Positions 30,796 to 48,212 of a stretch of DNA of 64,000 bases are shown here, piece by piece. The first letter of the stretch is position 1. Each line of letters starts with the position of its first letter. Origin of the DNA: Pacificispira spongiicola (lineage in GTDB: Bacteria; Pseudomonadota; Alphaproteobacteria; UBA8366; Aestuariispiraceae). The position numbers were made by a program, and so were the translations under genes. Where the stretch lies: contig NZ_JABBNT010000001.1 of NCBI RefSeq assembly GCF_012926505.1, forward strand, positions 496,001-560,000, given 5' to 3'. Under the pieces are notes generated by a model. That model did not search any database and was not told where the DNA came from. It saw only the letters and a list, made by a program, of their open reading frames with translations.

Positions 30796-32484
30796 TTACT
30801 TCGCGGCAGCACCGAACAGGGCCGACGCCTCCTCTGGGGAATAGCGGCCCAACCGAACATCTTCGGCCACTAGCTTCGGGTCGCGCGCTTCCGGCGCCCC
30901 GTAGCCGCCGCCGCCCGGCGTGCCGACACGCACGCGGTCTCCCGGTTTCAACGGGATGTCCTGCTCCTTGGACAGATGTTCCGGCACCATGGCTTTACCG
31001 CCCTGCCAGACGGTCACCGTATTCGGCTTCCCATCCTTGCCGCCCAACGCGCCCTGCGGCCCGAAGCGGCCGTGATCCATGACGAAGCTGGCCGTCGCCT
31101 GGCCGCGCAGCAATTCGATCTCGTAATCCAGACCGAAGCCGCCGCGGTGTTGTCCGGCACCGCCGGACCCTTCGCGCAGGGCATAGCGGTGGTAGAGGAT
31201 CGGATATTGCTGTTCCATGATTTCGACCGGCGGGGCCTTCGAAATCCCGATGGTGGAACAGCCATTGGTCAGACCGTCATGGTCCGAATTCCCGCCGTAA
31301 CCGCCGCCGGAAATCTGATACATGACATAGCCCCGGTCATGCGCCGGATCGAACCCGCCCAGCGCGAAATTGCCCGAACTGCCGGCGGGCGACGCCGTCA
31401 CGCGGTCCGGCAGGGCCTCCACCAGCGCCGCGAAGACGCCTTCGGCGATGCGTTGGCTGACCTCCGCCGCGCAACCGGAAACCGGTCTGGGATAATGCGC
31501 ATCCAGGAAAGTCCCTTCCGGGCGGATGACCTTCAACGGCTCGAACGCCCCGGCGCTGATCGGCACGTCCGGGAAGATATGGCGCATCGCCAGATAGACG
31601 GAAGACAGTGTCGTCGCCAGAACGGAATTCATCGGCCCCAGACAAGGCGGGGAAGACCCGGCGAAATCGAAGGTCAGTTCCCCGTCCTTCGCGGTGATCG
31701 AAAGCTTGATTTCCAGCGGTTCGTTGACGACGCCGTCGCTGTCGACATAGGCGGTGGAGGTATAGACCCCGTCCGGGATCAACCGGACATTGGCGCGCAT
31801 CTGATCCGCCGCGCGCTGGCGCAATTCGGCGATCGCTTCCGTCACCACGTCGTCGCCGTAGCGGTCGAGGATACGGGTCAACCGTTCCGCCCCGACCAGC
31901 AGCGCCGCCGCCTGCGCCTTCACATCGCCGATCCGCTGTTCGGACACGCGAATGTTGGAGCAGATGATGGAATAGATTTCGGTATCCAGAACGCCTTCCT
32001 TGAACAGCCGGACCGGCGGCAGACGCAGCCCTTCCTGTTCGACAGAGGTCGCGGAGGCGGAAAAGCCGCCCGGCACGACGCCGCCCGTATCCGGCCAATG
32101 CCCGGTATTGGACAGCCAGCAATAGATTTCCCCATTGCGATAGAATGGCATGGCGAAGCGCACGTCCATCAGATGGGTGCCGCCCAGATAGGGATCGTTG
32201 ACGATATAGATATCGCCCGGCACCGGCGCCTTGACCCGACCGTCGGCGATCATTTCGATCAGCGTGCGCGTGGAATACTGCATCGTGCCGACGAAAACCG
32301 GCAGCCCCTGCGCACCCTGCGCGATCAGCGACCCGTCCACGGCGGAATAGATCCCGTCCGACCGGTCGTTGGCTTCCGCGATGACCGGCGAGAAGGCGGC
32401 ACGGGAAAAGCTCAAATCCATCTCGTCGCAGACCTGCTGCAACCCGGACTGGATGACGCTTAGGGTAATCGGATCGACGGTCAT
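30796..32484 (-). CDS. hyuB: Hydantoinase B/oxoprolinase family protein (HyuB), copy 2
   Basis: 562 aa from the ATG of MTVDPITLSVIQ, which overlaps the HyuA stop as ATGA with GGGAGCGG upstream. The frame stays open further upstream but that part is out of frame with HyuA and is not coding. The HyuB start, the central GDIYIVNDPYLGGTHLMDV motif and a Gly-rich C-terminal GTPGGGGYGAPEARD are present. It sits with HyuA and a molybdenum hydroxylase in one operon, so it likely opens a lactam generated from a hydroxylated N-heterocycle. Confidence 0.93.
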   Translation of the reverse strand: MTVDPITLSVIQSGLQQVCDEMDLSFSRAAFSPVIAEANDRSDGIYSAVDGSLIAQGAQGLPVFVGTMQYSTRTLIEMIADGRVKAPVPGDIYIVNDPYLGGTHLMDVRFAMPFYRNGEIYCWLSNTGHWPDTGGVVPGGFSASATSVEQEGLRLPPVRLFKEGVLDTEIYSIICSNIRVSEQRIGDVKAQAAALLVGAERLTRILDRYGDDVVTEAIAELRQRAADQMRANVRLIPDGVYTSTAYVDSDGVVNEPLEIKLSITAKDGELTFDFAGSSPPCLGPMNSVLATTLSSVYLAMRHIFPDVPISAGAFEPLKVIRPEGTFLDAHYPRPVSGCAAEVSQRIAEGVFAALVEALPDRVTASPAGSSGNFALGGFDPAHDRGYVMYQISGGGYGGNSDHDGLTNGCSTIGISKAPPVEIMEQQYPILYHRYALREGSGGAGQHRGGFGLDYEIELLRGQATASFVMDHGRFGPQGALGGKDGKPNTVTVWQGGKAMVPEHLSKEQDIPLKPGDRVRVGTPGGGGYGAPEARDPKLVAEDVRLGRYSPEEASALFGAAAK

Positions 32485-34562
32485 GCGCCCGCTCCCAATT
32501 CGATGATGATGTTGCCGTCCGCGTCCTGGATGGCCTTGTCGCCCGGATCGATGACGATGGTCGTGTCCATTTGCTCGACGATCGCGGGGCCATGGATTTC
32601 GGCGTCCAGCGGCAGGTGATCGCGCCAATAGATGGGCGTATCGACCATACCGTCGAACCAGACCGGGCGCGTGCCGGTGACAGCCTCTTCCAACGTATCC
32701 TTCCGCCCCGCCGGATCGATCAACAGGGACAGGTCGATTTCCGACCGCCGCCCGATCACCGAACAATTGACGTTCACGAGGCTCGCCTTGATTTCCGGCA
32801 GTTCGACATGGAAGCGGTTGAAATAGGCCTTTTCGAACAGCGATTGCAGATCGTCCAGGCTGGGCCGGGGACCGCTCAACGGTACGCGCAGCAGGTGGGT
32901 CTGCCCGATGAACTGCATGTCCACGGAATAGATTTCACGCAATTCCTCGATCCGGACATTTTCCTTTTCGATCAGCGACCGGCCTTCAGACGCTTGCTGA
33001 TCGAAAATCGCATGGACCGTGTCGATATCCAGTTCCGAGAGGCGCTTGTTCACCGTGCTGACGAAATCATGGCGCAGATCCGCGACGACGCAGCCCAGCG
33101 CATTGGTAATGCCGGGCCGCGACGGGACCAGCACGCGCGGCACACCCAATTCGCGCGCAATCGCCGTGGCATGCAGCGGCCCCGCCCCGCCGAACGCGAA
33201 CAGCGCATAATCGCGCGGGTCCTCGCCCAGGCTGATAGACACCATGCGCACCGCGTCCGCCATGCGCGTATTGGCGATTTGCAGGACGGCGGCGGCGGCT
33301 TCCTTCGCCCCGACGCCCAGCGGCTTGCCCAGCTTGTCGGCGAAGGCCGCTTCGATATCCGACATGGAAACGGTTTCAGACACGGAATTCAGCTTTTCCG
33401 GATTCATCCGGCCCAGGAACAGATTGGCGTCCGAAATCGTCGGCTCCTGCCCACCCCGGCCATAGCAGATCGGCCCGGGCGTCGATCCGGCGCTTTCCGG
33501 CCCGACGCGCAGCAGCCCTGCCTCCGTAATCTGCGCGATCGACCCGCCGCCCGCGCCGACGGTGCGCACATCCACCATCGGGACATGGATCGGCATGGCA
33601 TATTCGATTTCGATCTCGTTCGACACGGCGGGTTCCGCACCCCGGATCAAGGCGACATCGGTCGATGTCCCGCCCATATCGTAGGTCAGCAGGTTCGGAA
33701 TCCCCGCGCGCCGCCCGGTATAGGCCGCCGCCATCACGCCCGATGCCGGACCGGACATCACGGTCTTCGCGGCCTCTATCGCCACCCGGCGGGCGGATAC
33801 CATGCCCCCGTTGCCATTCATCACCAGAACATCGTGACGATAGCCCTTTTCCGCCAAGTGATCCGCCAGCCGTTCGACATAGCGCCGCAACAGCGGCTGA
33901 ACGGAGGCATTGATCGCCGCCGTGACGCCGCGTTCGTATTCCCGACTTTCGGACAATAGGGAATGGCCCAGCGTGATGTTCTCGTTCGGCCAGACCTCCG
34001 CCGCGATTTCCCCAGCGCGCAATTCATGCGCCGGATTGGCATAGGAATGCAGGAAGTGGATCACCAGCGCCTCGCAGCCCTTGTCCAGCAGGGCGCGCAA
34101 CGCCGCCTTGAACGCGTCTTCGTCCAACGCGGTATGGACCGTGCCGTCGACATACAGCCGTTCCGGTACTTCCAGACGCAGGTCGCGCGGGATGACCGGC
34201 TTGAATTCCCCTTTCATGCCATAGGCATTGGGGCGGGTCCGGCGGCCCAGTTCCAGGATATCGCGGAAGCCCTGGGTCGTGACCAGACCGGTCTTGCACA
34301 GGGTTCGTTCCAGCACCGCGTTCGTCGTCGTCGTCGTCCCGTGCACGATCAAGTCCAAGGTGGACAGGTCCGCCTCCGCCATTTCCAGTGCCTTCAGCAC
34401 CCCGAAGGCCTGATTGTCCAGGGTGGTCGGCGTCTTTGCCAACCGCACCGACCCGCTTTCGGCGTCATACAGGATCAAATCCGTGAAGGTTCCCCCGACA
34501 TCGACGCCCGCGACCTTCGAATTGGACGGAACGGCGGCGGCACTGGATACGGAATCACTCAT
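32481..34562 (-). CDS. hyuA: Hydantoinase A/acetone carboxylase beta-like ATPase subunit (HyuA), copy 2
   Basis: 693 aa. ATP-binding motifs GVDVGGTFTDLILYD (about residue 19), MSGPASGVMA and TYDMGGTSTDVALI are in order. It follows the fused hydroxylase gene by 8 bp. HyuA provides ATP-driven activation of a cyclic amide for HyuB. It differs clearly from copy 1 at 24316, so the two pairs probably act on different intermediates or arose by separate acquisition. Confidence 0.93.
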   Translation of the reverse strand: MSDSVSSAAAVPSNSKVAGVDVGGTFTDLILYDAESGSVRLAKTPTTLDNQAFGVLKALEMAEADLSTLDLIVHGTTTTTNAVLERTLCKTGLVTTQGFRDILELGRRTRPNAYGMKGEFKPVIPRDLRLEVPERLYVDGTVHTALDEDAFKAALRALLDKGCEALVIHFLHSYANPAHELRAGEIAAEVWPNENITLGHSLLSESREYERGVTAAINASVQPLLRRYVERLADHLAEKGYRHDVLVMNGNGGMVSARRVAIEAAKTVMSGPASGVMAAAYTGRRAGIPNLLTYDMGGTSTDVALIRGAEPAVSNEIEIEYAMPIHVPMVDVRTVGAGGGSIAQITEAGLLRVGPESAGSTPGPICYGRGGQEPTISDANLFLGRMNPEKLNSVSETVSMSDIEAAFADKLGKPLGVGAKEAAAAVLQIANTRMADAVRMVSISLGEDPRDYALFAFGGAGPLHATAIARELGVPRVLVPSRPGITNALGCVVADLRHDFVSTVNKRLSELDIDTVHAIFDQQASEGRSLIEKENVRIEELREIYSVDMQFIGQTHLLRVPLSGPRPSLDDLQSLFEKAYFNRFHVELPEIKASLVNVNCSVIGRRSEIDLSLLIDPAGRKDTLEEAVTGTRPVWFDGMVDTPIYWRDHLPLDAEIHGPAIVEQMDTTIVIDPGDKAIQDADGNIIIELGAGA

Positions 34563-34570
34563 CTATCGGC

Positions 34571-37324
34571 TCAATTCTTCGCACTGGGGGATTGGGTTTG
34601 GGCCAGGATCGCCGCGCGCACCCGATCCGGCGTGGCGGGTAGATGGGCGACGCGCGCACCGCTGGCATGCTTGATCGCGTTCAGGATCGCCGGCGCCGTC
34701 GGGATCAGGCAATGTTCGCCCAGTCCTTTCGCACCATAGGGACCGTGTTCGTCCCCGCTTTCCACGATCAGGGTCTCGATCGGCGGCACGTCGCCGACAG
34801 TCGGGATCAGATAGTCGTGCAGGTTTTCCGTCCGGCCGGGCAGGAATTCCTCCATCAGCGCCAGACCGATACCCTGGGCGACGCCGCCCTGAACCTGACC
34901 TTCGACCAGTAGCGGATTGATCGCCTTGCCGACATCATGGGCTGCGGTGATTTTCAAAAGCTTCACCGTGCCCAATTCCAGATCGACCTCCAATTCCGCG
35001 ATCTGCGCGGTGGTGCCGAACACGGCATAGGGAACCCCCTGCCCGTTTTCGTCCAACGGCAGAGTCGGCGGATCGTAGGATTCCACCGATTCCAGCACAT
35101 AGGTCGCATTGTCCGGTGTCAGCGTGTCGAGCGGGAACAGACGTTCCCCGCCGTCGTCACGCACCCGGATCGCGCCGTCGCCAACGCTGATTTCCGCATC
35201 GCCGGAAACATTGGCAAGCCGCAGGATGCGCGCCCGCATCGCTTCCCCGCACAGGCGCGCGGCATTGCCCGTGACGAAGGTTTGGCGGCTGGCCGAGGTC
35301 TTGCCCGCGTCCGGGGTCACGTCCGTATCCGGTCCGACGATATCGATTCCGTCGACCGGCACGCCCAGCGCGGTCGCGAAAATCTGGGCAATGACGGTAT
35401 TCGCCCCCTGCCCGATATCCATCGCCCCCTGATGAAGAACGACATGCCCGTCCAGCGTGATCCCCGCGCGGATGGTCGACGGATTGGACAGGGAGGTATT
35501 GCCGCAACCATACCAACCGCCCGCGATGCCGACGCCCCGGCGCACGGTGCCGCCCTTGGCATTCGCTGTTGCCGCATCGGCCAGCGCCCGCTTCCAATGC
35601 GGTTCCAGGACATCGAAACATTCAACAATACCCATGCCGGTTTCGAAGACCTGTCCGGTCACCGTCGGGTCGCCGTTGCGCAAGGCATTGCGGCGGCGGA
35701 ATTCCAATCGGTCGATACCCAGCGCATCGGCCAGATCGTCATACAGCGGTTCCTGCGCCAGCGCCGATTGCGGCACACCGAAGCCCCGGAACGCGCCGGA
35801 CGGCGCTGTGTTCGTGTGGATACCCGCGCTGCGCGCCAGATAATTCGGCGTCTTGTAGGGGCCGGAGGCATGGATCGGCACCCGGTTGGCGACGGTCGGC
35901 CCCCAACTGGCATAGGCGCCGGTATTGAAGATCCCGTCGAATTCCGCCCCGACGATGGTACCGTCCGCATCCGCGCCGATCCGCATGGTGATTTCAGACG
36001 GATGCCGCTTCGTGGAGGTGGAAATGGATTCGATCCGGCTGTAGGTCACGCGGACGGGTTTGTTCAACACCCAGGCCGCCAGCGCGACATAGGGCTGCGC
36101 CGTCAGATCCAGCTTCGATCCGAAGCCGCCGCCCACGGCGGTCGGAATGATGCGGACGCTTTCTTTCGGCAGGCCCATCAGAATGGCGATGCCGTCCTGG
36201 TTCATGACCGGGGCCTGGGTACAGCATTGCACCTCTATCCGGTCGCCGACCCGTCGCGCGACGGCGGCTTCCGGTTCGATATAGCCATGTTCGATGAAGC
36301 CGGTGGAAAACGACCCTTCCGCGACGACCGCCGCCGATTGCAGGGCCGCCGACGCGTCGCCGCGCTTGACGAAGCCTCGGCACATGACATTGCCGTCCCG
36401 GCCCTTATGCATATCGCCGATACCGGCGGCATCCTTCGGCAACAACGCGTGCGGCAACGGCGTGTAGGTGACCGGGAATTCCGTCAGGTCCAGGGCGTTG
36501 ACGATATCCGCCGACCCGACCACGGCGGCCACGGCCTCCCCCTTGAAGCGGGTTTCGCCGTCGGCGAAGATCGGTTGATCCTCGAAGCCCGGAATGACGC
36601 CGAACCGGTTATCGCCCGGCACATCCGCGACCGTCAGAATCAGGTCCAGACCGGTGCGGAGTTTGTAGGCGTCCAGATCGCCGAGTTCGAACCCGGCACG
36701 GTGATGCGGACACCGAACGAGACGCAGCACCAAGGTACCTTCCGCCGCGACGTCGTCGGCGAATCGTTCGGTGCCGGACACTTTCGGCAGGCCGTCGACG
36801 CGGGCCATCGGGGTCCCGACGCCGCCGACCGGATTGGCGGTCGTGCCGCCGCAATCCATCACCGCATCGATGATCTTGCGATACCCGGTACAGCGGCACA
36901 GAACCCCGCCCAGCGCGTCTTCGACGGCGGCCTGATCGGGTTTTGACCTATCGCGCAGCAAGGCGACGGCGGATACCATCATACCCGGCGTGCAAATGCC
37001 GCATTGGGCCGCCTGATGCCGCTGAAACGAGGCGGCGAGGTCCTTCGCGATGGGATCGGCGGCGAATAGCCCCGCCTGTGTTTCGATCACCGCGCCGTCG
37101 ACCTGCCCCAGCGCCGTCGTACAGGCACAGACGGGATTGCCGTCGATCAGGATCGTGCAGGCCCCGCAATCGCCCGCATCGCAACCGACCTTAACATCAC
37201 GCGTCCCCGCCCGCTCGCGCAGGGCATAGGACAGTCTTTCGCTGGGCGGACCATCGACCCGAACCGGTTTGCCGTTGAGGGAAAAGGATATGCCGGGCTG
37301 ATGATCGATATCGGTAAGGGCCAC
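34571..37324 (-). CDS. Molybdenum hydroxylase, fused 2Fe-2S and molybdopterin subunits (xanthine/nicotinate dehydrogenase type)
   Basis: 917 aa. Residues 1-165 hold two [2Fe-2S] clusters: the plant-ferredoxin type with C48, C53, C56 and C68, and the helical type with C108, C111, C143 and C145. Residues about 165-917 are the molybdopterin-binding subunit with VGGGFGSK, MDIGQGANT and a C-terminal AKGLGEH whose Glu is the catalytic base. It starts at GTG with AAAGGAG upstream. The FAD subunit is the gene just before it. Such enzymes hydroxylate a carbon next to a ring nitrogen using water. With the 6-hydroxynicotinate-reductase-like gene nearby, nicotinate or a related heteroaromatic acid is the best guess. 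Confidence 0.92.
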   Translation of the reverse strand: MALTDIDHQPGISFSLNGKPVRVDGPPSERLSYALRERAGTRDVKVGCDAGDCGACTILIDGNPVCACTTALGQVDGAVIETQAGLFAADPIAKDLAASFQRHQAAQCGICTPGMMVSAVALLRDRSKPDQAAVEDALGGVLCRCTGYRKIIDAVMDCGGTTANPVGGVGTPMARVDGLPKVSGTERFADDVAAEGTLVLRLVRCPHHRAGFELGDLDAYKLRTGLDLILTVADVPGDNRFGVIPGFEDQPIFADGETRFKGEAVAAVVGSADIVNALDLTEFPVTYTPLPHALLPKDAAGIGDMHKGRDGNVMCRGFVKRGDASAALQSAAVVAEGSFSTGFIEHGYIEPEAAVARRVGDRIEVQCCTQAPVMNQDGIAILMGLPKESVRIIPTAVGGGFGSKLDLTAQPYVALAAWVLNKPVRVTYSRIESISTSTKRHPSEITMRIGADADGTIVGAEFDGIFNTGAYASWGPTVANRVPIHASGPYKTPNYLARSAGIHTNTAPSGAFRGFGVPQSALAQEPLYDDLADALGIDRLEFRRRNALRNGDPTVTGQVFETGMGIVECFDVLEPHWKRALADAATANAKGGTVRRGVGIAGGWYGCGNTSLSNPSTIRAGITLDGHVVLHQGAMDIGQGANTVIAQIFATALGVPVDGIDIVGPDTDVTPDAGKTSASRQTFVTGNAARLCGEAMRARILRLANVSGDAEISVGDGAIRVRDDGGERLFPLDTLTPDNATYVLESVESYDPPTLPLDENGQGVPYAVFGTTAQIAELEVDLELGTVKLLKITAAHDVGKAINPLLVEGQVQGGVAQGIGLALMEEFLPGRTENLHDYLIPTVGDVPPIETLIVESGDEHGPYGAKGLGEHCLIPTAPAILNAIKHASGARVAHLPATPDRVRAAILAQTQSPSAKN

Positions 37325-37327
37325 GGG

Positions 37328-38170
37328 TTACTCCTTTTCCTGGGCGGCGCGGGTAACGGCGCGCCCGATCAGCGTCCGCACCGCGTCCAGCCGATAGGCG
37401 GCGGTCGCACGGACATCGTCGATGGGGGACAGGACGGACAAGTCGGCCTTTTGCAAGGCGTCGGCGAAGTCGATCGATCCGGGGACAAGGCCGGTCAGCG
37501 CCCGCTCCATCGTATCGATCCGTTGCGCAACGGGGGAACAGGCCCCCACCGCGATCGAAACGCTTTCAAGCGCACCGTCCGAGGTCACCGACACATTCGC
37601 AGCGACCATGGCCATGGAGATCACCAGATACCGCCGCGCGCCCAGTTTCAGGAAGCAGGAGCGATCCGACGGTCGATCCGGGACGATCACCGCCGTCACC
37701 ATTTCACCCGGCTGCAAGGCAATCGACCGAACGCCGGTAATGAACTGGCCCAGCGGCACGGTGCGGCTGCCACTTGTGCCTGCGACCTCAACCGATGCAT
37801 CCATCGCCAGCAAGGGCGGCACGCCGTCGGCGGCGGGCGAGGCATTGCAGATATTGCCGGCAATCGTCCCGGCATTTTGAATTTGGATAGACCCGACTTC
37901 CCGCGCCGCCAATTGCAGGGCGGTGAATTGCGGCGGCAGGTCAGCATCGCGGATATGCGACCAGGTCGTCGTCGCGCCGATACGCCATGCATCGCCGGAT
38001 TTCGTAATGCCTTTCAGACCCGACACGCGGCTTAGGTCAAGTACCGGCCCATCCGCCGTGCGCCCCGCCCGGGCCGGGAAAAAGTCCGTCCCCCCGGCCA
38101 GCATCGTCACCGATCCGTCGGCCAGCAGCCCCAAGGCAGCGTCAATCGTTTCCGGTCTATGGAACTGCAT
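37328..38170 (-). CDS. Molybdenum hydroxylase FAD-binding subunit (CoxM/XdhB-like)
   Basis: 280 aa from the ATG of MQFHRPETID; an in-frame ATG 10 codons earlier would run into the operator. FAD motifs AGGTDFFPA (about residue 34) and IQNAGTIAGNICNASPAAD (about 105) are typical. It passes electrons from the 2Fe-2S clusters of the fused subunit to an acceptor. It is first in the minus-strand operon FAD subunit, fused hydroxylase, HyuA, HyuB. Confidence 0.92.
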   Translation of the reverse strand: MQFHRPETIDAALGLLADGSVTMLAGGTDFFPARAGRTADGPVLDLSRVSGLKGITKSGDAWRIGATTTWSHIRDADLPPQFTALQLAAREVGSIQIQNAGTIAGNICNASPAADGVPPLLAMDASVEVAGTSGSRTVPLGQFITGVRSIALQPGEMVTAVIVPDRPSDRSCFLKLGARRYLVISMAMVAANVSVTSDGALESVSIAVGACSPVAQRIDTMERALTGLVPGSIDFADALQKADLSVLSPIDDVRATAAYRLDAVRTLIGRAVTRAAQEKE

Positions 38171-38192
38171 CGGTACCCCCACAATGCATTTC

Positions 38193-38236
38193 ATTTGCAT
38201 ACAAACGAATTAGAGACCCTTCAGAAAAATTGTCAA
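38193..38236 (-). promoter_or_regulatory. Promoter of the hydroxylase operon with operator copy A
   Basis: On the minus strand a perfect -35 TTGACA (38236-38231) is followed after 16 bp by TCTAAT (38214-38209), five of six matches to -10. Operator copy A, ATTTGCATACAAACGAAT on the plus strand (38193-38210), overlaps the -10 edge and transcription start. The same sequence recurs at 38305 and 39250. Its position suits a repressor. Confidence 0.65.
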
Positions 38237-38304
38237 GCGGTGGCGACCGAAAATCAACGCGCGGCCGCAATCAATATTTTTTAGTTGCGTTTCTTCACAA
38301 ACTC

Positions 38305-38322
38305 ATTTGTATACTAACGATT
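38305..38322 (+). promoter_or_regulatory. Operator copy B at the ferredoxin-NADP reductase promoter
   Basis: ATTTGTATACTAACGATT matches copies A and C in the core TTTGYATACWAACGA, centred on the palindrome GTATAC. It contains a -10-like TATACT (38310-38315), with TTGCGT 19 bp upstream as a weak -35. It lies 37 bp before the reductase ATG. Confidence 0.6.
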
Positions 38323-38358: not shown

Positions 38359-39192
38359 ATGTCCGAAACGCTCGCCATCGACACCGCCGCCTCCGCGGTG
38401 GGAAAAAATGAATTTCCGATTCCGACCGGCTGTTATGGCCTGACGGTTCAGGAGGTTGAGCATTACACCGACACCTTGTTCCGATTCCGGCTGGCCCGTC
38501 CGGCGGATTTTCGCTTTCGGTCCGGCGAATTCGTGATGATCGGTCTGCCGAACGCGGAAAAACCCGTCTTCCGCGCCTATTCCGTGGCCAGCCCGTCCTG
38601 GGACGAGGAACTGGAATTCTATTCGATCAAGGTGCCGAACGGTCCGCTGACCGAACATCTGCAAAAAATCCAGCCGGGCGACACCGTATTGATGCGGAAG
38701 AAATCCACCGGGACCCTGGTGAACGACGCGCTGATCCCCGGCAAACGCCTGTGGATGTTCTCCACCGGCACCGGCATCGCCCCCTTCGCCAGCCTGATCC
38801 GCGATCCCGAAACCTACGACAAGTTCGACACCGTGATCCTGACCCATGGCTGCCGCACGGTGGCGGAATTGAAATACGGCGAGGACCTTGTCGCCGCCCT
38901 GCGCGACGATCCGCTGGTCGGCGAATTGGTGAAGGACCGCCTGATCCATTACACCACGGTCACACGGGAAGAATTCGTCCGGCAGGGCCGGATCACCGAC
39001 CTGATCGAAAGCGGCAAACTGTTCGACGACCTGGGATTCCCGCGCATGGGACCGGAAGACGACCGCGCCATGATCTGCGGGTCGATGGCGATGTTGAAAG
39101 ATACGAAAGCCCTGTGCCTCCGCCACGGGTTGGAGGAAGGCGCGAACAACAAACCGGCCCAGTTCGTGGTCGAACGCGCCTTTGTCGACTAA
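38359..39192 (+). CDS. fpr: Ferredoxin-NADP(+) reductase
   Basis: 277 aa from the ATG of MSETLAID with CAGGAG upstream. The FAD motif RAYSVASP and the NADP-binding GTGIAPFASLIRDPETY are clear, and the C-terminus ends in FVVERAFVD, the Fpr type. It moves electrons between NADPH and ferredoxin or flavodoxin. It is divergent from the molybdenum hydroxylase and just upstream of the 6-hydroxynicotinate-reductase-like gene, both under copies of one operator. Its role is probably to supply low-potential electrons for ring reduction, or to take electrons from the hydroxylase. Confidence 0.93.
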   Translation: MSETLAIDTAASAVGKNEFPIPTGCYGLTVQEVEHYTDTLFRFRLARPADFRFRSGEFVMIGLPNAEKPVFRAYSVASPSWDEELEFYSIKVPNGPLTEHLQKIQPGDTVLMRKKSTGTLVNDALIPGKRLWMFSTGTGIAPFASLIRDPETYDKFDTVILTHGCRTVAELKYGEDLVAALRDDPLVGELVKDRLIHYTTVTREEFVRQGRITDLIESGKLFDDLGFPRMGPEDDRAMICGSMAMLKDTKALCLRHGLEEGANNKPAQFVVERAFVD

Positions 39193-40810: not shown

Positions 40811-41703
40811 CGGGTCAAGCGACGGGGAAGGCCTGGACCGAAACCGCATGCATGCGCATGCTTCCCGACGGGCGCCGCCTGCACCTGTCGCATGGTCCGA
40901 TCGACCTGATCGTGGAAGCCGTCGGCGACCCGTCGGAACGATCCCAGGCCTATATCCAGGCGCAAAACGCCTTCGCCGACATTCTGCCGACCTTGGTGCA
41001 GGAATTGCCGCGCCTGCGCTCGCCGTCCGGCCCCGTTCCGAACGGTCCCGTTGCCTGCCGAATGCATGCGGCGACGGCGCGTTTCGCCCCCGAATTCATC
41101 ACGCCGATGGCCGCGGTCGCGGGCAGTGTCGCGGATTATATGCTGGAAAAGATGATCGCGGGCCGCACCTTGTCCCGCGCCTATGTCAATAATGGCGGGG
41201 ATATCGCGCTGCATCTGGCGGATGGTGTGTTCCGTATCGGTGTCTGCGACGATCCGGTGACCGGCGCGGCGGGGGGCATTGTCGACCTGCGCCCGGAAGA
41301 CGGGATCGGCGGTATCGCCACCAGCGGCTGGAAGGGCCGGTCCCATTCCCTGGGCATCGCCGATGCGGTCACCGTTCTGGCGACGACGGCGGCGCAGGCC
41401 GACGCCGCCGCCACGATGATCGCCAATCAAGTCGATCTGCCCGACTCCACCAAAGTCACGCGGGAACGCGCCTGCGACCTTTCCCCCGATAGCGATCTGG
41501 GGGACCTGTTGGTCACGACCGGCGTCGCGCCCTTATCGCCCTTGGAAATAGATGCGGCTCTGCAGGGCGGCGAGCAAGCGGCGCGGATCTATCTGGAGGA
41601 CGATCGGATCGCGGCTGCCTATATCGCGCTTGCCGGGGAACGCCGCATCATCGACACCAATCACCATCAAATCATAACCGCCCGGGAGGCCGCCTGTGCC
41701 TGA
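40807..41703 (+). CDS. UPF0280 family protein (ApbE-like)
   Basis: 298 aa; the ATG overlaps the preceding stop as ATGA. AYVNNGGDIALHL and GIATSGWKGRSHS are UPF0280 hallmarks and correspond to the NGGD and ATSG segments of ApbE flavin transferases, although the HxIDP part is missing. The family has no firmly assigned function that I know of. Tight linkage to the Fe-S reductase suggests it may mature or flavinylate that enzyme, or handle a flavin-like intermediate; this is inference. Confidence 0.85.
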   Translation: MTGQATGKAWTETACMRMLPDGRRLHLSHGPIDLIVEAVGDPSERSQAYIQAQNAFADILPTLVQELPRLRSPSGPVPNGPVACRMHAATARFAPEFITPMAAVAGSVADYMLEKMIAGRTLSRAYVNNGGDIALHLADGVFRIGVCDDPVTGAAGGIVDLRPEDGIGGIATSGWKGRSHSLGIADAVTVLATTAAQADAAATMIANQVDLPDSTKVTRERACDLSPDSDLGDLLVTTGVAPLSPLEIDAALQGGEQAARIYLEDDRIAAAYIALAGERRIIDTNHHQIITAREAACA

Positions 41704-42280
41704 ACCTATCCTGCGAAAAAGCGCGCTTGTCGTTGAAGAGATTTTCCATGAAGGCGGCCCGGTCGCCGAAAAACCCCTCCGCCGGGCCGCGATGCTCTGT
41801 GTCATCAAGAACCCGTTCGCCGGACGCTATGTCGAGGATATCGCCGGGTTCATGGAAGACCTGAAGCCGCTGGGCGTGGATATGGCGCAGAAACTGGTCG
41901 ATGCCCTGGGCGGCGATGCAGGCATCGTCGAAGGCTACGGCAAGGGCGCGATCGTCGGCACGGCGGGCGAATTGGAACACGGCGCGCTGTGGCATGTGCC
42001 CGGCGGTTATTCCATGCGCGAAATCTTACCCGCGTCCAACGCGATTGTTCCCTCCACGAAAAAGATCGGCGGACCGGGGACTCGGTTGGACGTGCCGGTC
42101 ACGCATTGCAACGCCTCCTATGTCCGGTCGCATTTCGACGCGATGGAGGTCGGCCTTGCCGACGGGCCAAAGGCGGATGAAATCCTGCTCGCCCTCGTCA
42201 TGACGACGGGCCCGCGCATCCATGCCCGCGTCGGCGGCTTGAAAGCGTCCGATATCGAAGGGAAAGACGGCCTGCGATGA
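41696..42280 (+). CDS. Amino acid synthesis family protein (AA_synth/DUF1185), first copy
   Basis: 194 aa from a GTG start with CGGGAGG upstream, overlapping UPF0280 by 8 bp. The family features VIKNPFAGRYVEDI, VPSTKKIGGPGTRLDVP and YVRSHFDAMEV are shared with the next gene. Solved members have a variant of the Bacillus chorismate-mutase fold; activity is not established. The location between a ring reductase and HyuAB-linked genes points to a step on a cyclic or just-opened ring product, perhaps a tautomerase or hydrolase. Confidence 0.88.
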   Translation: MPEPILRKSALVVEEIFHEGGPVAEKPLRRAAMLCVIKNPFAGRYVEDIAGFMEDLKPLGVDMAQKLVDALGGDAGIVEGYGKGAIVGTAGELEHGALWHVPGGYSMREILPASNAIVPSTKKIGGPGTRLDVPVTHCNASYVRSHFDAMEVGLADGPKADEILLALVMTTGPRIHARVGGLKASDIEGKDGLR

Positions 42281-42861
42281 TTGCCCGCCTGCGCAAAATC
42301 GTGACCTTCCTGGAAACGATCGACCGGGAATTCGATCGGCCCGTCTCTCCACCGGCCACCCGTGTCTGTTGCGCGGCGCTGATCGAAAATCCCTGCGCCG
42401 GACGCTATGTCGAAGACCTGTCCGAACTGATCGAAATCGGTGCGGAAATGGGTACGCAACTGGCTCGGCGCTGTCTTGAGGTCGGTGGGCTGCGCGCGGA
42501 AGATATTCAAAGCTTCGGTAAGGCCGCGATGGTCGGGGAAGCCGGGGAAATCGAACACGCCGCCGCGATTCTGCACCCGTCCCTGGGCGCACCGTTGCGG
42601 GCGATTCTGGGCGGCGGCAAGGCGCTGGTCCCGTCCTCGAAGAAGATGGGCGGGCCCGGCGATACGCTGGACGTGCCGCTAGGTCACAAGGATGCGGCCT
42701 ATGTCCGGTCGCATTTCGACGGGATGCCGGTCACAATCGCGGACGGGCCGCGCGCCAATGAAATTCTGGTCGCCATCGCCCTGGCCCCGACCGGCCGCCC
42801 CCTGCCCCGCGTGGGCGGATTGGAACATGCCGACATCGTCGGAAATGACGGGCTGCGGTAG
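42277..42861 (+). CDS. Amino acid synthesis family protein (AA_synth/DUF1185), second copy
   Basis: 194 aa, the same length as its upstream paralogue, and ATGA-overlapping with it. ENPCAGRYVEDL, VPSSKKMGGPGDTLDVP and YVRSHFDGMPV align with the first copy throughout, while the rest has diverged. A coupled tandem pair of similar proteins suggests hetero-oligomer subunits or two related reactions. No catalytic residue can be named with confidence. Confidence 0.88.
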   Translation: MIARLRKIVTFLETIDREFDRPVSPPATRVCCAALIENPCAGRYVEDLSELIEIGAEMGTQLARRCLEVGGLRAEDIQSFGKAAMVGEAGEIEHAAAILHPSLGAPLRAILGGGKALVPSSKKMGGPGDTLDVPLGHKDAAYVRSHFDGMPVTIADGPRANEILVAIALAPTGRPLPRVGGLEHADIVGNDGLR

Positions 42862-43014: not shown

Positions 43015-43068
43015 TAAAACTGAGTGACAGAAACGTCACCGCAAACATTGAACAGAAAGAGGCAGAGA

Positions 43069-44274
43069 ATGAAGCATTTGAAGACATTGATGGCCGCTGC
43101 GACGGCCGTCCTGGCGGTCGCGGGTTCCGCGCAGGCCCAGGAAAGCATCAAGATCGGGGACATCAACCATTACAAACGACTGGCGGCCTTCGCGGAACCC
43201 TACAAGAAGGGTCTCGACCTCGCGGTCCAGCAGATCAACGACGCCGGCGGCGTTCTGGGCCGTCCGCTGGAAGTCATTTCCCGCGACGATAACGGCAAGC
43301 CGGGCGACGCGGTGAAAATCGCCGAAGAACTGATGACCCGCGACGGCACGGTCATGCTGACGGGCAGCATCCTGTCCAATGTCGGCCTCGCCATTTCGTC
43401 CCTGGCGGCGGAAAAGGGCTATATCTACCTCGCCGCCGAACCGCTGGCCGACGCGCTGGTTTGGGAATCGGGCAACCCCTACACGTTCCGCCTGCGCACC
43501 TCCACCCATGTTCAGGCCGCCATGCTGGCCGAAGAAGCGGCGAAGACCGACGCGGTTCGCTATGCCACCATCGCGCCGAACTACGCCTACGGCACGGCCG
43601 CCGTCGCCGCCTTCAAGGAAATCCTCACGAAACTAAAGCCGGACGTCGAATTCGTCGCCGAACAGTGGCCCGCCCTGTTCAAAATCGACGCCGGTGCGGA
43701 AGTCCAAGCGCTGGAAGCCGCGAAGCCGGATGCGATCTACAACGTCACCTTCGGCACCGACTTGCAGAAATTCGTGCGTGAAGGGTCGACCCGCGGCCTG
43801 TTCGAAGGCCGCAAGGTCTATGGCCTGCTGACCGGTGAACCGGAATACCTGGACCCGCTGGGCGAGGAATCGCCGGAAGGCTGGTTCGTCACGGGATATC
43901 CCTGGTACGGTCTGGAAGACGGCCCAGGTAAGAAATTCGTCGACGAATACATGGCGGCCTATCCGGATGAAACGCCGAAGGTCGGCAGCATCGTCGGCTA
44001 TATGACGATCCAGAGCATTGCCGCCGCCTTGACCAAGGCCGGTTCGACGGACACGCCCGCGCTGCTGGCGGCGTTCGAAGACCTGCAGGTCCCGAACACC
44101 CCGATGGGCGACATCATGTACCGTGGCCTCGACAACCAGTCGACGATGGGCGCCTATGTCGGCACCACGGCCATCAAGGACGGCAAGGGCGTGATGGTGG
44201 ATTGGGAATACAAGAACCCGGTCCCGTACATGCCCAGCGACGAAGAAATCAAGGCGAAGCGCCCGGCCGAATAA
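43069..44274 (+). CDS. Branched-chain-type ABC transporter substrate-binding protein (LivK-like)
   Basis: 401 aa from the ATG of MKHLKTLMAAAT. A signal peptide ends at AGSAQA-QE. The mature protein is a Peripla_BP_6 two-lobed binding protein (ESIKIGDINHYKRLAAFAEP, then INDAGGVLGRPLEVISRDD). In catabolic clusters these proteins often bind aromatic or heteroaromatic acids rather than leucine. It is followed by its permease and ATPase genes and sits directly after the AA_synth pair, so it probably imports the heteroaromatic substrate. Confidence 0.9.
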   Translation: MKHLKTLMAAATAVLAVAGSAQAQESIKIGDINHYKRLAAFAEPYKKGLDLAVQQINDAGGVLGRPLEVISRDDNGKPGDAVKIAEELMTRDGTVMLTGSILSNVGLAISSLAAEKGYIYLAAEPLADALVWESGNPYTFRLRTSTHVQAAMLAEEAAKTDAVRYATIAPNYAYGTAAVAAFKEILTKLKPDVEFVAEQWPALFKIDAGAEVQALEAAKPDAIYNVTFGTDLQKFVREGSTRGLFEGRKVYGLLTGEPEYLDPLGEESPEGWFVTGYPWYGLEDGPGKKFVDEYMAAYPDETPKVGSIVGYMTIQSIAAALTKAGSTDTPALLAAFEDLQVPNTPMGDIMYRGLDNQSTMGAYVGTTAIKDGKGVMVDWEYKNPVPYMPSDEEIKAKRPAE

Positions 44275-44295
44275 GCCGACGCCACCCTACCTGAC

Positions 44296-44336
44296 GCCGC
44301 CGCGGATCGCCGATATCCCCGGCCGTTCGCGGCGGC
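44296..44336 (+). terminator. Weak intercistronic stem-loop after the binding-protein gene
   Basis: GCCGCCGCG (44296-44304) and CGCGGCGGC (44328-44336) are perfect complements with a 23-base loop, followed by TTCTGTTT. It probably gives partial termination or mRNA protection, raising binding-protein levels over the permease. Confidence 0.45.
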
Positions 44337-44372
44337 TTCTGTTTCCAAAAACGTTTCGGGTTGATAGACGCC

Positions 44373-46232
44373 ATGGGTCTCTTTGCGGCACAGCTCATTA
44401 CCGGGCTTGCGAATGCGGCGGCTTTGTTCCTCGTCGCCTCCGGTCTTTCCTTGATATTCGGCGTCACCCGGATCGTGAACTTCGCGCATGGTTCGCTGTA
44501 TATGCTGGGCGCCTATTTCGGCGTCACCCTGATGCAGATGCTGCCCGGCGGCTTCGGCTTCTGGGGGTCGGTCCTGCTGTCCGGCCTGATCGTCGGGCTG
44601 ATCGGCGTGGTGATCGAAATCTGCGTTCTGCGTCCGGTCTATCGCGCGCCGGAACTGTTTCAACTGGTCGCCACGTTCGGCGTTATCCTGGTCATTCAGG
44701 ATCTGACGTTGATGATTTGGGGTGCCGACGATCAGATCGGCCCACGCGCGCCCGGCCTGAAATCCGTCGTCCGCATCCTGGGCGAACCCATTCCGCAATA
44801 CGACCTTGCCCTGATCGCCATCACGCCCTTCATCCTATTGGCGCTGTGGTGGCTGATCACCAAGACCCGGATCGGCATCCTGGTCCGGGCGGCGACGCAG
44901 GACCGCACCATGGTCGGCGCGCTGGGCGTCAATCAATCCTGGCTGTTCACCGGCGTGTTCTTCCTGGGCTCCGCGCTTGCCGGTTTGGGCGGCGCGATCC
45001 AGTTGCCGAAGGGCGGCGCCGACTTGTTGATGGATTTGAACATCATTTCGGCCGTCTTCGTCGTCGTCGTCATCGGCGGCATGGGATCCATTCCGGGGGC
45101 CTTCGTCGCCTCCGTTCTGATTTCCGTCCTGAACGTCTTCGGCGTCGCCTATCTACCGCAGAGCACCCTGGTCCTGATGTATGTGGTGATGGCCGTCGTC
45201 CTGCTGATCCGCCCTTACGGCCTGCTGGGACGGGAGGAAAAAGGCGGTGAGCACGGACAGGTCGGTGAACCGGACCGGCCGATCCGGCCTGCCGGACTTG
45301 TCGGGCGATCGCTGGTCGCGGCCTTGATGGTCGCCCTCGCCCTCATCCCTGTTTTCGGCAGCAACTTCACCCAGGTCCTACTGACCGACATCATCATCTT
45401 CTGCCTGTTCGCGGCCTCGCTGCAATTCATGCTCAGCACCGGCGGGCTGGTCAGTTTCGGGCATGCGGCCTATTTCGGCGGCGGCGCCTATGCCGCCGCG
45501 CTGCTGGTCACGCATGCGGGCACGCCGATGGAACTCGCCTTCCTGTTCGCGCCTTTCGCCGCCGGTCTACTGGCCATCATCTTCGGCTGGTTCTGCATCC
45601 GGTTGAGCGGCGTTTACTTCGCGATGCTGACGCTTGCCTTCAGCCAATTGGTCTGGTCCGCCGCCTTCCAATGGTACGATGTGACCGGGGGCGACGACGG
45701 GCTGGTAAACATCTGGCCGTCGGAATGGCTGTCCGGCACCACGACCTATTACTATTTCACCCTGATCGTCGGGGTCGGCGGCATCATCCTGTTGCGCCAC
45801 CTGACGCATACGCCGCTCGGCTATGCCTTGCGGGCGGGCCGTGACAGCGACCGTCAGGCGGAAGCGACCGGCATCAATGTGAAGCTGGTGCAATGGACGG
45901 GTTTCGCCGTCGCCGGGGCCTTGGCCGGTCTGGCGGGCGGATTGTTCGTCTTCTCCAAGGGATCGATCTTCCCGAACGAATTGGAAATCGCGAAAAGCTT
46001 CGACGCGCTGATCGTCGTCTTCCTGGGCGGCGTGAAGACCCTGTCCGGCGGTGTCGTCGGCGCGGCCTTCATGGACGGCGTGCGGGACTGGCTGACCCGG
46101 TTGGAATATTGGCGGCTGATCCTGGGCCTGCTGATCATCGCGGTGGTCATCATCGCCCCCAACGGAATCGTCGGCAGCCTGCGGAAAGGCGCTGAACGGC
46201 TGGGCTTCTATCGCGGGGAGTTTTCGGAATGA
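44373..46232 (+). CDS. Fused LivH-LivM branched-chain-type ABC permease
   Basis: About 619 aa from ATG 44373; a TTG at 44361 is an alternative. Residues 1 to about 290 are LivH-like (VTRIVNFAHGSLYMLGAYFG, then GAFVASVLISVLNVFG). A charged linker (REEKGGEHGQVGEPDRP) follows, then a LivM-like half (GLVSFGHAAYFGGGAYAAAL, LRAGRDSDRQAEATGIN). The two permeases are usually separate genes; here one chain makes the whole channel. The LivG gene overlaps by ATGA. Confidence 0.92.
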   Translation: MGLFAAQLITGLANAAALFLVASGLSLIFGVTRIVNFAHGSLYMLGAYFGVTLMQMLPGGFGFWGSVLLSGLIVGLIGVVIEICVLRPVYRAPELFQLVATFGVILVIQDLTLMIWGADDQIGPRAPGLKSVVRILGEPIPQYDLALIAITPFILLALWWLITKTRIGILVRAATQDRTMVGALGVNQSWLFTGVFFLGSALAGLGGAIQLPKGGADLLMDLNIISAVFVVVVIGGMGSIPGAFVASVLISVLNVFGVAYLPQSTLVLMYVVMAVVLLIRPYGLLGREEKGGEHGQVGEPDRPIRPAGLVGRSLVAALMVALALIPVFGSNFTQVLLTDIIIFCLFAASLQFMLSTGGLVSFGHAAYFGGGAYAAALLVTHAGTPMELAFLFAPFAAGLLAIIFGWFCIRLSGVYFAMLTLAFSQLVWSAAFQWYDVTGGDDGLVNIWPSEWLSGTTTYYYFTLIVGVGGIILLRHLTHTPLGYALRAGRDSDRQAEATGINVKLVQWTGFAVAGALAGLAGGLFVFSKGSIFPNELEIAKSFDALIVVFLGGVKTLSGGVVGAAFMDGVRDWLTRLEYWRLILGLLIIAVVIIAPNGIVGSLRKGAERLGFYRGEFSE

Positions 46233-47002
46233 CGGTCGTCCTGAAAGTCGAAAACCTGTCGAAACATTTCGGCGGTCTGCGCGCCGTGAACGGCGTCACA
46301 TTCGACGTTGCGCGCGGCGAGTTGAAGGCGCTGATCGGTCCCAACGGCGCGGGCAAATCGACCTGCTTCAACATGCTGATGGGTCAGTTGAAACCGTCCG
46401 CCGGACGCGTTTCCCTGAACGGCGAGGATATTACCGGCAAGCCGCCCCGCGATATCTGGCGGCGCGGCGTCGGGCGGACGTTCCAGATCACCGGCACGTA
46501 TCAAAGCATGACCGTGGCCGAAAACGTCCAGATGGCGCTGATCTCCCACCACCGGAAAATCTTCGCCATCCGTCCCTTCGCCCACAAGCTGTATCGGGAC
46601 GAGGCCCTCGCCCTGCTGGAAATCGTCGGCATGGCGGATCAGGCGGATCGGGCCTGCGCGATCCTGGCCTATGGCGATTTGAAACGTCTGGAACTGGCAA
46701 TTGCCCTGGCCAACAATCCGACGCTGCTGTTGATGGACGAACCGACGGCAGGCATGGCGCCCAAGGAACGGGAACGCCTGATGCAATTGACGGCGGATAT
46801 CGTGCGCGACCGGAATATCAGCGTCCTGTTCACCGAACACGACATGGACGTGGTCTTCGCCCATGCCCATCACATCATGGTGCTGAACCGGGGCGAGTTG
46901 ATCGCCGACGGCACGGCGGCGGAGGTCCGCAACAACGCACAGGTGCAAGAAGTCTATCTGGGCGGCGGCACCCTTTACGCGAAGGAGGACGCCCATGCTT
47001 GA
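46229..47002 (+). CDS. livG: Branched-chain-type ABC transporter ATP-binding protein (LivG-like)
   Basis: 257 aa. Walker A GPNGAGKST, a LivG-type Walker B region (LLMDEPTAGMAPKE) and the C-terminal H-loop (VLFTEHDMDVVF) are visible. The usual LSGG signature is replaced by LAYGDLKRLE, as in many LivG proteins. It overlaps the fused permease by 4 bp and LivF by 8 bp. Confidence 0.93.
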   Translation: MTVVLKVENLSKHFGGLRAVNGVTFDVARGELKALIGPNGAGKSTCFNMLMGQLKPSAGRVSLNGEDITGKPPRDIWRRGVGRTFQITGTYQSMTVAENVQMALISHHRKIFAIRPFAHKLYRDEALALLEIVGMADQADRACAILAYGDLKRLELAIALANNPTLLLMDEPTAGMAPKERERLMQLTADIVRDRNISVLFTEHDMDVVFAHAHHIMVLNRGELIADGTAAEVRNNAQVQEVYLGGGTLYAKEDAHA

Positions 47003-47696
47003 GGTATCCGGCCTGAACAGCTTCTACGGCAAGGCGCATATCCTGAACGATCTGAGCTTCACCGTCGGTCGCGGAGAGGTCGTCGCCCTGCTGGGCCGCA
47101 ACGGCGCGGGCAAGACGACCACGATGAAATCGATCATGCAGTTGGTCCATCCGAAATCCGGCGCGGTGACGTTCGAGGGCAAGGATATCGCAGGCTACAG
47201 CGCCCACCGCGTGGCCCGGATGGGCATCGGTTACGTGCCGGAGGAACGCCGCATCTTCACCGACCTGACCATCCTGGAAAACCTGGAGGTCGGTCGACAA
47301 AAGCCGCGCGAGGATGCGCCCGTCTGGACCGTGGACGCGCTGTTCGAAATCTTCCCGAACCTGTCCGAACGCCGCAACAACCGCGGCAAGGCCATGTCCG
47401 GCGGCGAACAGCAGATGTTGACCATCGCCCGCACGCTGATGGGCAATCCGAAACTGTTGCTGCTGGACGAACCGTCCGAAGGGATCGCGCCCGTGATCGT
47501 GGAGCAGATGGCGAAAACCATCCTGCGCTTCAAACGCGAGGGCCTGACCGTCGTGATTTCGGAGCAGAACCTGCATTTCGCCGGGATCGTTGCGGACCGG
47601 GCGATAATCATCGAAAGTGGCGTCAAGAAATTCGACGGCAGTTTTTCCGAATTGGAAAAGTCGCCGGAAATCCGGGATGCCTACCTGTCCGTATAG
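46995..47696 (+). CDS. livF: Branched-chain-type ABC transporter ATP-binding protein (LivF-like)
   Basis: 233 aa. Walker A GRNGAGKTT, signature MSGGEQQML, Walker B LLLDEPSEGIAP and H-loop VVISEQNLHF are in order. With LivG it forms the ATPase dimer of the importer. It is followed by a MarR regulator after a 36-bp gap. Confidence 0.93.
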   Translation: MLEVSGLNSFYGKAHILNDLSFTVGRGEVVALLGRNGAGKTTTMKSIMQLVHPKSGAVTFEGKDIAGYSAHRVARMGIGYVPEERRIFTDLTILENLEVGRQKPREDAPVWTVDALFEIFPNLSERRNNRGKAMSGGEQQMLTIARTLMGNPKLLLLDEPSEGIAPVIVEQMAKTILRFKREGLTVVISEQNLHFAGIVADRAIIIESGVKKFDGSFSELEKSPEIRDAYLSV

Positions 47697-47732
47697 GAAG
47701 GGAGGGGCGAAAGCGGAAATTGAGGAAACAAC

Positions 47733-48212
47733 GTGAAGAACGATGCCGAAGGCGCAGGCGGGCCGATCCCGGAAGACAGCGGGGAAACCGATGCGAAACC
47801 GGATCACGGCTATATCCTCGATGAGCAGATCGGATATTTGCTGCGCAAGGCCTATCAGCGCAACGCGGTGATCTTTTCCGAAAATATCCAGGACCTGACC
47901 CCGACGCAGTTCGCCGTCATGGCGCGGCTGACGGAATTGGGGTCCGTCTCGCAAAACCAGCTTGGCCGGACGGTCGGGCTGGACGTCGCCACGACAAAGG
48001 GCGTTGTGGACCGTCTGAACGCCAGGGGTCTTGTTCACACTGAAAAAGACCCGGTCGATCGTCGGCGGCAGTTGATTTCCCTGACCGAAGACGGCTGGCG
48101 GCATTTCACGGAGAATGCCCCGCGCGGCATTCACGTTTCCGACCAAACCGTCGCGCCCCTGACCCAGGCCGAACGGCGCAATTTCATGCGTCTTCTGAAG
48201 AAAATTCTCTAA
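47733..48212 (+). CDS. MarR-family transcriptional regulator
   Basis: 159 aa from GTG with TGAGGAAAC upstream. The winged helix spans about residues 55-120 (LGSVSQNQLGRTVGLDVATT, then DPVDRRRQLISLT in the wing). It ends the plus-strand gene string of the heteroaromatic locus. MarR proteins typically bind 16-20-bp palindromes over promoters and are released by aromatic acids or their CoA esters. It is the best candidate for the repeated TTTGYATACWAACGA operator; no other regulator lies within that locus. Confidence 0.92.
   Translation: MKNDAEGAGGPIPEDSGETDAKPDHGYILDEQIGYLLRKAYQRNAVIFSENIQDLTPTQFAVMARLTELGSVSQNQLGRTVGLDVATTKGVVDRLNARGLVHTEKDPVDRRRQLISLTEDGWRHFTENAPRGIHVSDQTVAPLTQAERRNFMRLLKKIL

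Follow-up and report, generated by a model that had tools for sequence, protein, structure and literature searches.

A divergent locus of Pacificispira spongiicola for probable reductive breakdown of nicotinate, in which HyuAB seems to replace enamidase

In the nicotinate fermentation of Eubacterium barkeri the ring is hydroxylated, reduced by 6-hydroxynicotinate reductase (Hnr; hereafter HNR) to the lactam 1,4,5,6-tetrahydro-6-oxonicotinate (THON) and opened hydrolytically by an enamidase (structure 2vun); 2-formylglutarate is then reduced. Here we analyse a stretch of 64,000 nucleotides from Pacificispira spongiicola (contig NZ_JABBNT010000001.1, positions 496,001 to 560,000; the window), in which a single divergent locus (30796-48212) appears to provide for the same succession of hydroxylation, reduction and hydrolytic opening, with a HyuAB pair where E. 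barkeri uses the enamidase. A second described system is the reductive nicotinate cluster of Azorhizobium caulinodans and Bradyrhizobiaceae SG-6C, described as containing an HNR gene, the genes of the initial three steps, an ABC transporter and a pair of proteins of unknown function (PMC3511419). This pair, we infer, is most probably UPF0280 and AA_synth. The Bradyrhizobium-type loci of our collection hold HNR, UPF0280, AA_synth, the same Liv-type importer and MarR regulator as the window, a ferredoxin-NADP reductase (FNR), NicAB (our label for a large cytochrome-c-bearing molybdenum subunit with a small [2Fe-2S] subunit) and an amidohydrolase, our enamidase query, that scores 374 bits to 2vun; sometimes a gene for NAPRTase is also present. 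The locus in the window resembles the Azorhizobium/Bradyrhizobiaceae SG-6C system in the first six of these components, whereas it differs in its molybdenum hydroxylase, which is of the xanthine-dehydrogenase type with FAD rather than of the NicAB type, in the presence of HyuAB instead of enamidase, and in having two AA_synth genes.

Taken together, the comparison makes it probable, with some confidence, that the locus degrades nicotinate by the reductive route and that HyuAB opens the lactam in place of enamidase. The minus arm comprises the FAD subunit, the molybdenum large subunit fused to its [2Fe-2S] domains, HyuA and HyuB, and the plus arm FNR, the HNR homologue, UPF0280, a pair of AA_synth genes, four genes for a Liv-type importer, and the MarR regulator. 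All genes named in an earlier reading of the letters alone (the original prediction) are intact open reading frames (ORFs) at the positions given there, and their domains agree with Pfam and NCBIfam scans. As near-identical gene order recurs in Salipiger, Actibacterium and Sagittula, the arrangement is not due to chance, and both the gene identities and the conserved grouping are borne out by genome comparison. In the scheme that we propose, the importer would bring in nicotinate, the large subunit of the molybdenum hydroxylase, a putative nicotinate 6-hydroxylase, would act with its FAD partner to yield 6-hydroxynicotinate, and HNR, fed by FNR as its presumed electron donor, would reduce this to THON. 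HyuAB would then open THON with ATP to 2-aminomethyleneglutarate, replacing enamidase, and AA_synth might assist the conversion of this product, via 2-formylglutarate, to ammonia, CO2 and glutarate semialdehyde. UPF0280 would load or attach the flavin of HNR, and the MarR protein would control the divergent promoters through two palindromes.

The Fe-S protein of the plus arm is identified as HNR on two grounds. One is a set of 26 homologues on plasmids, with identities of 60-78% across 90-99% of the query; 17 of them are annotated as '6-hydroxynicotinate reductase' and nine as hypothetical or not at all. The other is PMC3511419, according to which a cluster of this type contains a gene sharing 42% identity with the enzyme of E. 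barkeri. It matches no Pfam family above cut-off and no NCBIfam model; the sub-threshold hit to GCV_T_C (19.6 bits against 25.9) returns weakly in 44 of 47 HNR homologues at E <= 1 (best 0.00032). Seven cysteines (C13, C16, C20, C30, C119, C222 and C357) are invariant in all 49 aligned sequences, which represent 48 of 52 non-redundant loci and the window. A search of PDB sequences with the HNR profile gave nothing below E 0.1, and the predicted structure, a model of only fair quality (pLDDT 76.7), found no PDB fold at E <= 0.001; the original prediction would have been called into question by a structural match to an unrelated reductase, and none appeared. With 78% identity to Salipiger and Sagittula and 65% to five other genomes of its own genus, the HNR of the window suggests that the locus was acquired by horizontal transfer. 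The plasmid that carries the Sagittula locus has been typed as conjugative.

How firmly can the ring opening be assigned to HyuAB? Our argument rests on annotations and orthology in two samples. For the first, 299 genomes of the phylum were searched for HNR, with 21 positives, to which seven HNR genomes from the genus (five) and family (two) of the window were added, giving 28; an enamidase was scored at E <= 1e-60 and HyuB at 65% identity or above. For the second, 104 HNR loci were assembled from the window, 20 other HNR genomes, the best 80 of 591 candidates and three of the 26 plasmid matches; L031 and L121 proved to be one locus, leaving 103 that are distinct (HNR under 99% identical). The HyuB copies of genomes G194 and G197, with one stop each, are scored here as homologues that are present and not as functional genes. 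L044 (genome G016) was counted as a locus; its HNR frame is broken at about 9225-10764 into two overlapping ORFs, by a pseudogene or a sequencing error, and enters none of the alignments.

The genome of the window has no enamidase match of the 2vun type at E <= 1e-60, a search that gave matches in 10 of the 21 HNR genomes, whereas adjacent genes of its locus carry Hydantoinase_A (294 bits) and Hydantoinase_B (528 bits) domains. HyuB is present in 13 of the 21, and in the seven added genomes, all of them without an enamidase match by the same query, it is found each time at 66-69% identity. Over the 28 HNR genomes this amounts to enamidase only in 8, HyuB only in 18, both in 2 and neither in 0. 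HyuB at or above 65% identity occurs in 13 of the 299 genomes, every one of them HNR-positive, the other matches at E <= 1e-100 reaching only 42-44%. The same division is seen at the level of the loci: within the DNA examined, 48 of the 103 have an enamidase, 17 have HyuAB, none has both and 38 have neither. Pairings with the dehydrogenase occur in every combination, namely NicAB with enamidase (32), NicAB with HyuAB (7), the FAD type with enamidase (15) and the FAD type with HyuAB (9), the other 40 loci lacking one or both in the DNA examined; the type of dehydrogenase does not dictate the ring opener. Annotated clusters point the same way. On the Paracoccaceae plasmid pLA6_008, two genes for 'acetophenone carboxylase' subunits, which by similarity are HyuB and HyuA, are placed between nicA/nicB and hnr, with nicR downstream, and in Neorhizobium NCHU2750 the order is hnr, three genes at the positions of UPF0280 and the AA_synth pair, then hyuA and hyuB, nicA/nicB lying some 8 kb upstream of hnr. 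On the strength of this distribution, the pairings and the two clusters, the view that HyuAB is a non-homologous replacement of enamidase is strongly supported by genome comparison. The order of hydroxylation, reduction and lactam opening, and the exchange of enamidase for HyuA/HyuB, both put forward in the original prediction, are thereby supported over 28 genomes and 103 loci.

Several observations speak against so simple a picture. The 38 loci without either ring opener in the DNA examined are one, although many of them are short. Another is that the probability of zero overlap by random draw, 6e-6, comes from a calculation that ignores relatedness. Two genomes, G123 and G194, hold both HyuB and an enamidase relative. 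Among the ten enamidase matches this relative diverges furthest (64-65% identity), and it stands in a different locus, beside two AA_synth genes and without HNR, the single HNR of each genome lying elsewhere. Finally, six genomes (L032-L037) have HyuB on another contig or more than 70 kb from HNR, which, like the loci devoid of a ring opener, would suit a scenario in which HyuAB acts on a later intermediate or side product while some other amidase opens the ring. We consider this scenario highly improbable, as every one of the 28 HNR genomes holds enamidase or HyuB and so few hold both, and as HyuB above the identity threshold is confined to HNR genomes in the 299-genome sample. A third ring opener was sought in eight HNR loci with neither enzyme; among their unknown ORFs only two proved alike, at 27%, and none was classified. 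The loci L178 and L179, from two genomes, group both kinds of AA_synth with a MarR gene and a divergent enamidase, with no HNR nearby; L178 also has an isochorismatase-type gene. They perhaps represent a related route for another ring compound.

As for the substrate, the N-heteroaromatic acid of the original prediction can be narrowed to nicotinate as the most likely compound, because HyuAB-type HNR clusters carry annotated nicA/nicB, in one case with nicR, and because the MarR protein matches 6pco and 6pcp. The hydroxylase of the window, being of the FAD and not the NicAB type, and the NCBIfam models nearest to HyuA and HyuB, those of caprolactamase, whose substrate is a saturated lactam, detract from this assignment. 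They would rather fit another N-heteroaromatic acid, for instance picolinate or a substituted nicotinate, with HyuAB opening a saturated lactam such as 6-oxopipecolate. That the locus serves such an acid is nevertheless improbable in our judgement: its HNR is about 70% identical to the HNRs of clusters with NicAB and enamidase, the FAD type also accompanies enamidase and NicAB also accompanies HyuAB, and the importer proteins are 51-66% identical to those of the Bradyrhizobium-type clusters. Seven HNR loci, L127 (Sagittula, 19535-20605), L045, L046, L049, L050, L058 and L084, further encode a Rieske oxygenase alpha subunit, the other six copies being 54-85% identical to that of Sagittula, with those of L049 and L084 in pieces or cut; the gene lies inside the operon in Sagittula and is not found in the window. 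This oxygenase could act as a trigonelline demethylase or supply the route in some other way.

The closest relatives of HyuA and HyuB by domains and best NCBIfam models belong to the caprolactamase CapAB and hydantoinase/oxoprolinase family. The caprolactamase alpha model is the best for HyuA, at 505 bits, and HyuB reaches 314 bits, both far below the equivalog cut-off of 1000; the best solved match of HyuB is 6yra_B (263 bits). By analogy with this family, HyuAB would use ATP. In the literature collection that we searched, no description of a HyuAB-type nicotinate route was found. The original prediction of a distinct, incompletely described route holds for the ring-opening step and does not for the route as a whole, which was already known; in it one step appears replaced, and roles are proposed for two families. 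With the substrate and the novelty so recast, and the order of steps and the HyuAB exchange upheld, the earlier reading stands in part.

Neither UPF0280 nor AA_synth had a role in the original prediction, and for each we now propose a working hypothesis. The UPF0280 profile matches 21 of the 299 genomes, exactly the HNR set, with one copy in each, and UPF0280 is near HNR in 101 of the 103 distinct loci, the exceptions being L055, a contig of 5.5 kb, and L074, with 10 kb on each side; the pairing of the two genes is thus a result of genome comparison. Pfam gave no PF02424 match for the 404-residue ORF that contains UPF0280, and the gene of one relative scored 20.5 bits against a cut-off of 25.6. 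The predicted structure (pLDDT 93.5) found 41 PDB chains at E <= 0.001, of which two are DVU1097, itself a UPF0280 protein, and 39 are ApbE, FmnB or Ftp, with no others, although TM-scores were only 0.34-0.54 on the query length. A comparison at the profile level gave a probability of 90% (E 1.6e-6, 100 columns). In an alignment made from 59 of 79 UPF0280 sequences and that of the window, Ser173 and Asp199, the counterparts of two members of the Asp-Ser-His triad of ApbE at the positions given in PMC12052999, are invariant in 57 of 57.

An ordinary ApbE was not found in the genome of the window and is above cut-off in 11 of the 21 HNR genomes, so that HNR does not seem to be generally dependent on ApbE. 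Hnr of E. barkeri presumably holds a covalently bound flavin. These data lead us to favour, by a small margin over doubt, a function of UPF0280 in loading or attaching the HNR flavin, whether it does so as a chaperone or by chemistry of a variant kind. The likeness to the ApbE/FmnB/Ftp flavin transferases would then lie in the fold, in the conserved Ser and Asp and in being the partner gene of a presumed covalent flavoprotein, whereas UPF0280 lacks the conserved catalytic His and no universal acceptor of the ApbE type was found in HNR. Two observations count against a transferase function: the column nearest to the ApbE His holds H in 12 and F in 34 of 57 sequences, and Thr226 of HNR (in 'GSAT'), considered as a universal flavin acceptor, was rejected, since the column holds T in 43 of 49, A in five and V in one, with five of the six exceptions at UPF0280-bearing loci. 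Other columns with T or S in all 49 number 28.

The lack of the His, together with the seven invariant Cys of HNR, could also indicate a UPF0280 that acts in the Fe-S or persulfide chemistry of HNR rather than on its flavin, a role of the kind suggested for relatives in homocysteine synthesis. COG2122 is reported in PMC5764234 to be needed for homocysteine formation in a D. species. The literature is more reserved on the role of UPF0280; for the relatives the same paper describes a homocysteine-synthesis phenotype whose chemistry is unsettled (PMC5764234). Given a fold match to UPF0280 and ApbE/FmnB/Ftp only and the invariance of Ser173 and Asp199, we hold the Fe-S alternative to be unlikely, though to be taken seriously. 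The covalent flavin that we take to be present in E. barkeri Hnr likewise argues for the flavin.

AA_synth (PF06684) is found in 41 of the 299 genomes, including 20 of the 21 HNR genomes, and in at least one copy at 97 of the 103 distinct HNR loci. It was rejected as the ring opener, as it accompanies both enamidase and HyuAB loci. AA_synth 1 is present at 16 of 17 HyuAB loci against 18 of 48 enamidase loci, and among the NicAB loci at 7 of 7 against 5 of 32; the idea that it is a specific partner of HyuAB is weakened by the FAD-type loci, where 8 of 9 against 12 of 15 make no difference. In a tree of 62 copies, the trigonelline type stands apart from the nicotinate type; AA_synth 1 and AA_synth 2, too, fall for the most part into groups of their own. 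K83, E92, E94, H95 and R108 are conserved in 165 of 165 aligned copies, and R174 and R178 in 164 of 165 (the copies were not made non-redundant); since these copies span nicotinate, trigonelline and other types, the residues common to all fit a common reaction.

The trigonelline type was recognized in genomes free of HNR, from 18 of 21 of which AA_synth loci were taken and judged by similarity to the genes of one of them, L187, as identified by Pfam. Among these 18 loci, 11 have an LLM oxygenase, nine of them an LLM oxygenase with a flavin reductase, and 13 an alpha/beta hydrolase with an aldehyde dehydrogenase; on an Acinetobacter plasmid, AA_synth and an alpha/beta hydrolase share a row with genes annotated as tgnA, tgnB and tgnC. 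This arrangement corresponds to the trigonelline cluster TgnABCDEF of Acinetobacter, in which an AA_synth gene likewise stands beside genes for a hydrolase, a flavin reductase, an oxygenase and an aldehyde dehydrogenase. There, the ring is opened by the oxygenase and the product is succinate semialdehyde, whereas the product in the window would be glutarate semialdehyde. In the trigonelline route the hydrolase splits an N-substituted aminomethylene dicarboxylate, and in both routes an aminomethylene or formyl dicarboxylate occurs one step before the semialdehyde. By this analogy, AA_synth may tentatively be given a part in turning the aminomethylene or formyl dicarboxylate into the semialdehyde, an assignment we put forward as possible rather than probable. 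TgnF, a homologue of the PF06684 member HcdD, stimulates the TgnE-dependent oxidation of succinate semialdehyde, according to PMC7913881. A protein speeding the step from the dicarboxylate to the semialdehyde would likewise resemble a stimulator of the dehydrogenase. Two points tell against such a part. Efforts in the same work to detect such stimulation by HcdD were unsuccessful (PMC7913881), and genome G139, which has HNR, UPF0280 and HyuB, has no AA_synth match, so that AA_synth is not always needed. At L202, on a plasmid of Thermomicrobium roseum, AA_synth is flanked by genes for a molybdenum-hydroxylase subunit and an amidohydrolase; the 14 kb inspected there include no annotated HNR.

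What would follow if all of these assignments held together? HyuAB would be an ATP-dependent THON lactamase, UPF0280 a second, His-less class of flavin transferase or a flavin-loading maturase reserved for HNR, extending to some target in homocysteine synthesis, and AA_synth a new family of enzymes, with a chorismate-mutase-like fold, that leads from aminomethylene or formyl dicarboxylates to semialdehydes by deamination or decarboxylation in the nicotinate and the trigonelline routes alike, perhaps through the invariant lysine; the fold of HNR, too, may be new to the PDB. As a whole, this conjunction is rather doubtful. A widespread, half-annotated gene set becomes a pathway of vitamin B3 catabolism with nameable steps, in which an ATP-driven lactamase has seemingly displaced enamidase, and the orphan families UPF0280/COG2122 and PF06684 gain one biochemical hypothesis each. 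A clear answer on UPF0280 in the HNR system would also bear on the chemistry of homocysteine synthesis, left open in the portion of PMC5764234 cited above.

As to the presumed regulation, the divergent gap contains two copies of the near-palindrome TCATTYGTATACRAATGA; a scan of the 64 kb that allowed three mismatches matched these two sites only, where 0.01 would be expected by chance. Similar palindromes occupy the same gap at L045, L046 and L127 (Salipiger marinus, Actibacterium ureilyticum and Sagittula stellata). The best solved match of the MarR protein is 2nnn_A; the second and third, 6pco and 6pcp, are structures of what we take to be the 6-hydroxynicotinate-responsive BpsR. As one palindrome covers 38191-38208, the start of the FAD subunit at 38170 is more likely than that at 38200.

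Table 1. Genes and operator-like elements of the locus, with positions in the window and the matches on which their naming is based.
Feature	Position	Strand	Evidence
HyuB (putative ring-opening subunit B)	30796..32487	-	Hydantoinase_B 528 bits; start ~32487
HyuA (putative ring-opening subunit A)	32481..34562	-	Hydantoinase_A 294 bits, Hydant_A_N
Mo-hydroxylase large subunit fused to [2Fe-2S] domains	34571..37324	-	MoCoBD_1, MoCoBD_2, Fer2, Fer2_2
Mo-hydroxylase FAD subunit	37328..38170	-	FAD_binding_5, CO_deh_flav_C; ORF open to 38200
Operator-like palindrome, copy 1	38191..38208		2 mismatches to TCATTYGTATACRAATGA
Operator-like palindrome, copy 2	38303..38320		2 mismatches to TCATTYGTATACRAATGA
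Ferredoxin-NADP reductase (FNR)	38359..39192	+	FAD_binding_6, NAD_binding_1; PRK10926 135 bits, below cut-off 390
HNR (6-hydroxynicotinate reductase homologue), Fe-S protein	39299..40810	+	Homology to plasmid copies; conserved Cys
UPF0280	40807..41703	+	NF003322 330.9 bits, above cut-off 290; ApbE fold (predicted)
AA_synth 1 (PF06684)	41696..42280	+	238 bits (cut-off 27); 3byq_A 194 bits
AA_synth 2 (PF06684)	42277..42861	+	223 bits (cut-off 27)
LivK-type binding protein	43024..44274	+	Peripla_BP_6; best solved match 3i45_A 470 bits
Fused LivHM permease	44361..46232	+	Two BPD_transp_2 stretches
LivG ATPase	46229..47002	+	ABC_tran, BCA_ABC_TP_C
LivF ATPase	46995..47696	+	ABC_tran
MarR-family regulator (NicR/BpsR-like)	47733..48212	+	MarR; 2nnn_A 100 bits, 6pco_A 89, 6pcp_A 88

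Directly after the MarR gene, at 48418-52007, the window encodes an OYE-type flavin oxidoreductase and an MTTB-family methyltransferase, followed by a CocE hydrolase and an Opp importer. The first two were set aside as members of the locus on moderate evidence, as neither occurs in the 7.6 kb after the MarR gene of Sagittula; among the best 80 of the 591 HNR candidates none had a match to either, many of these loci, including those of Salipiger and Actibacterium, ending soon after MarR. The window also contains a second HyuA/HyuB pair (22769-26391), near a TRAP transporter and an HpaI-type aldolase; its HyuB is not among the matches that the HNR-linked HyuB gives at E <= 1e-100 in the same genome.

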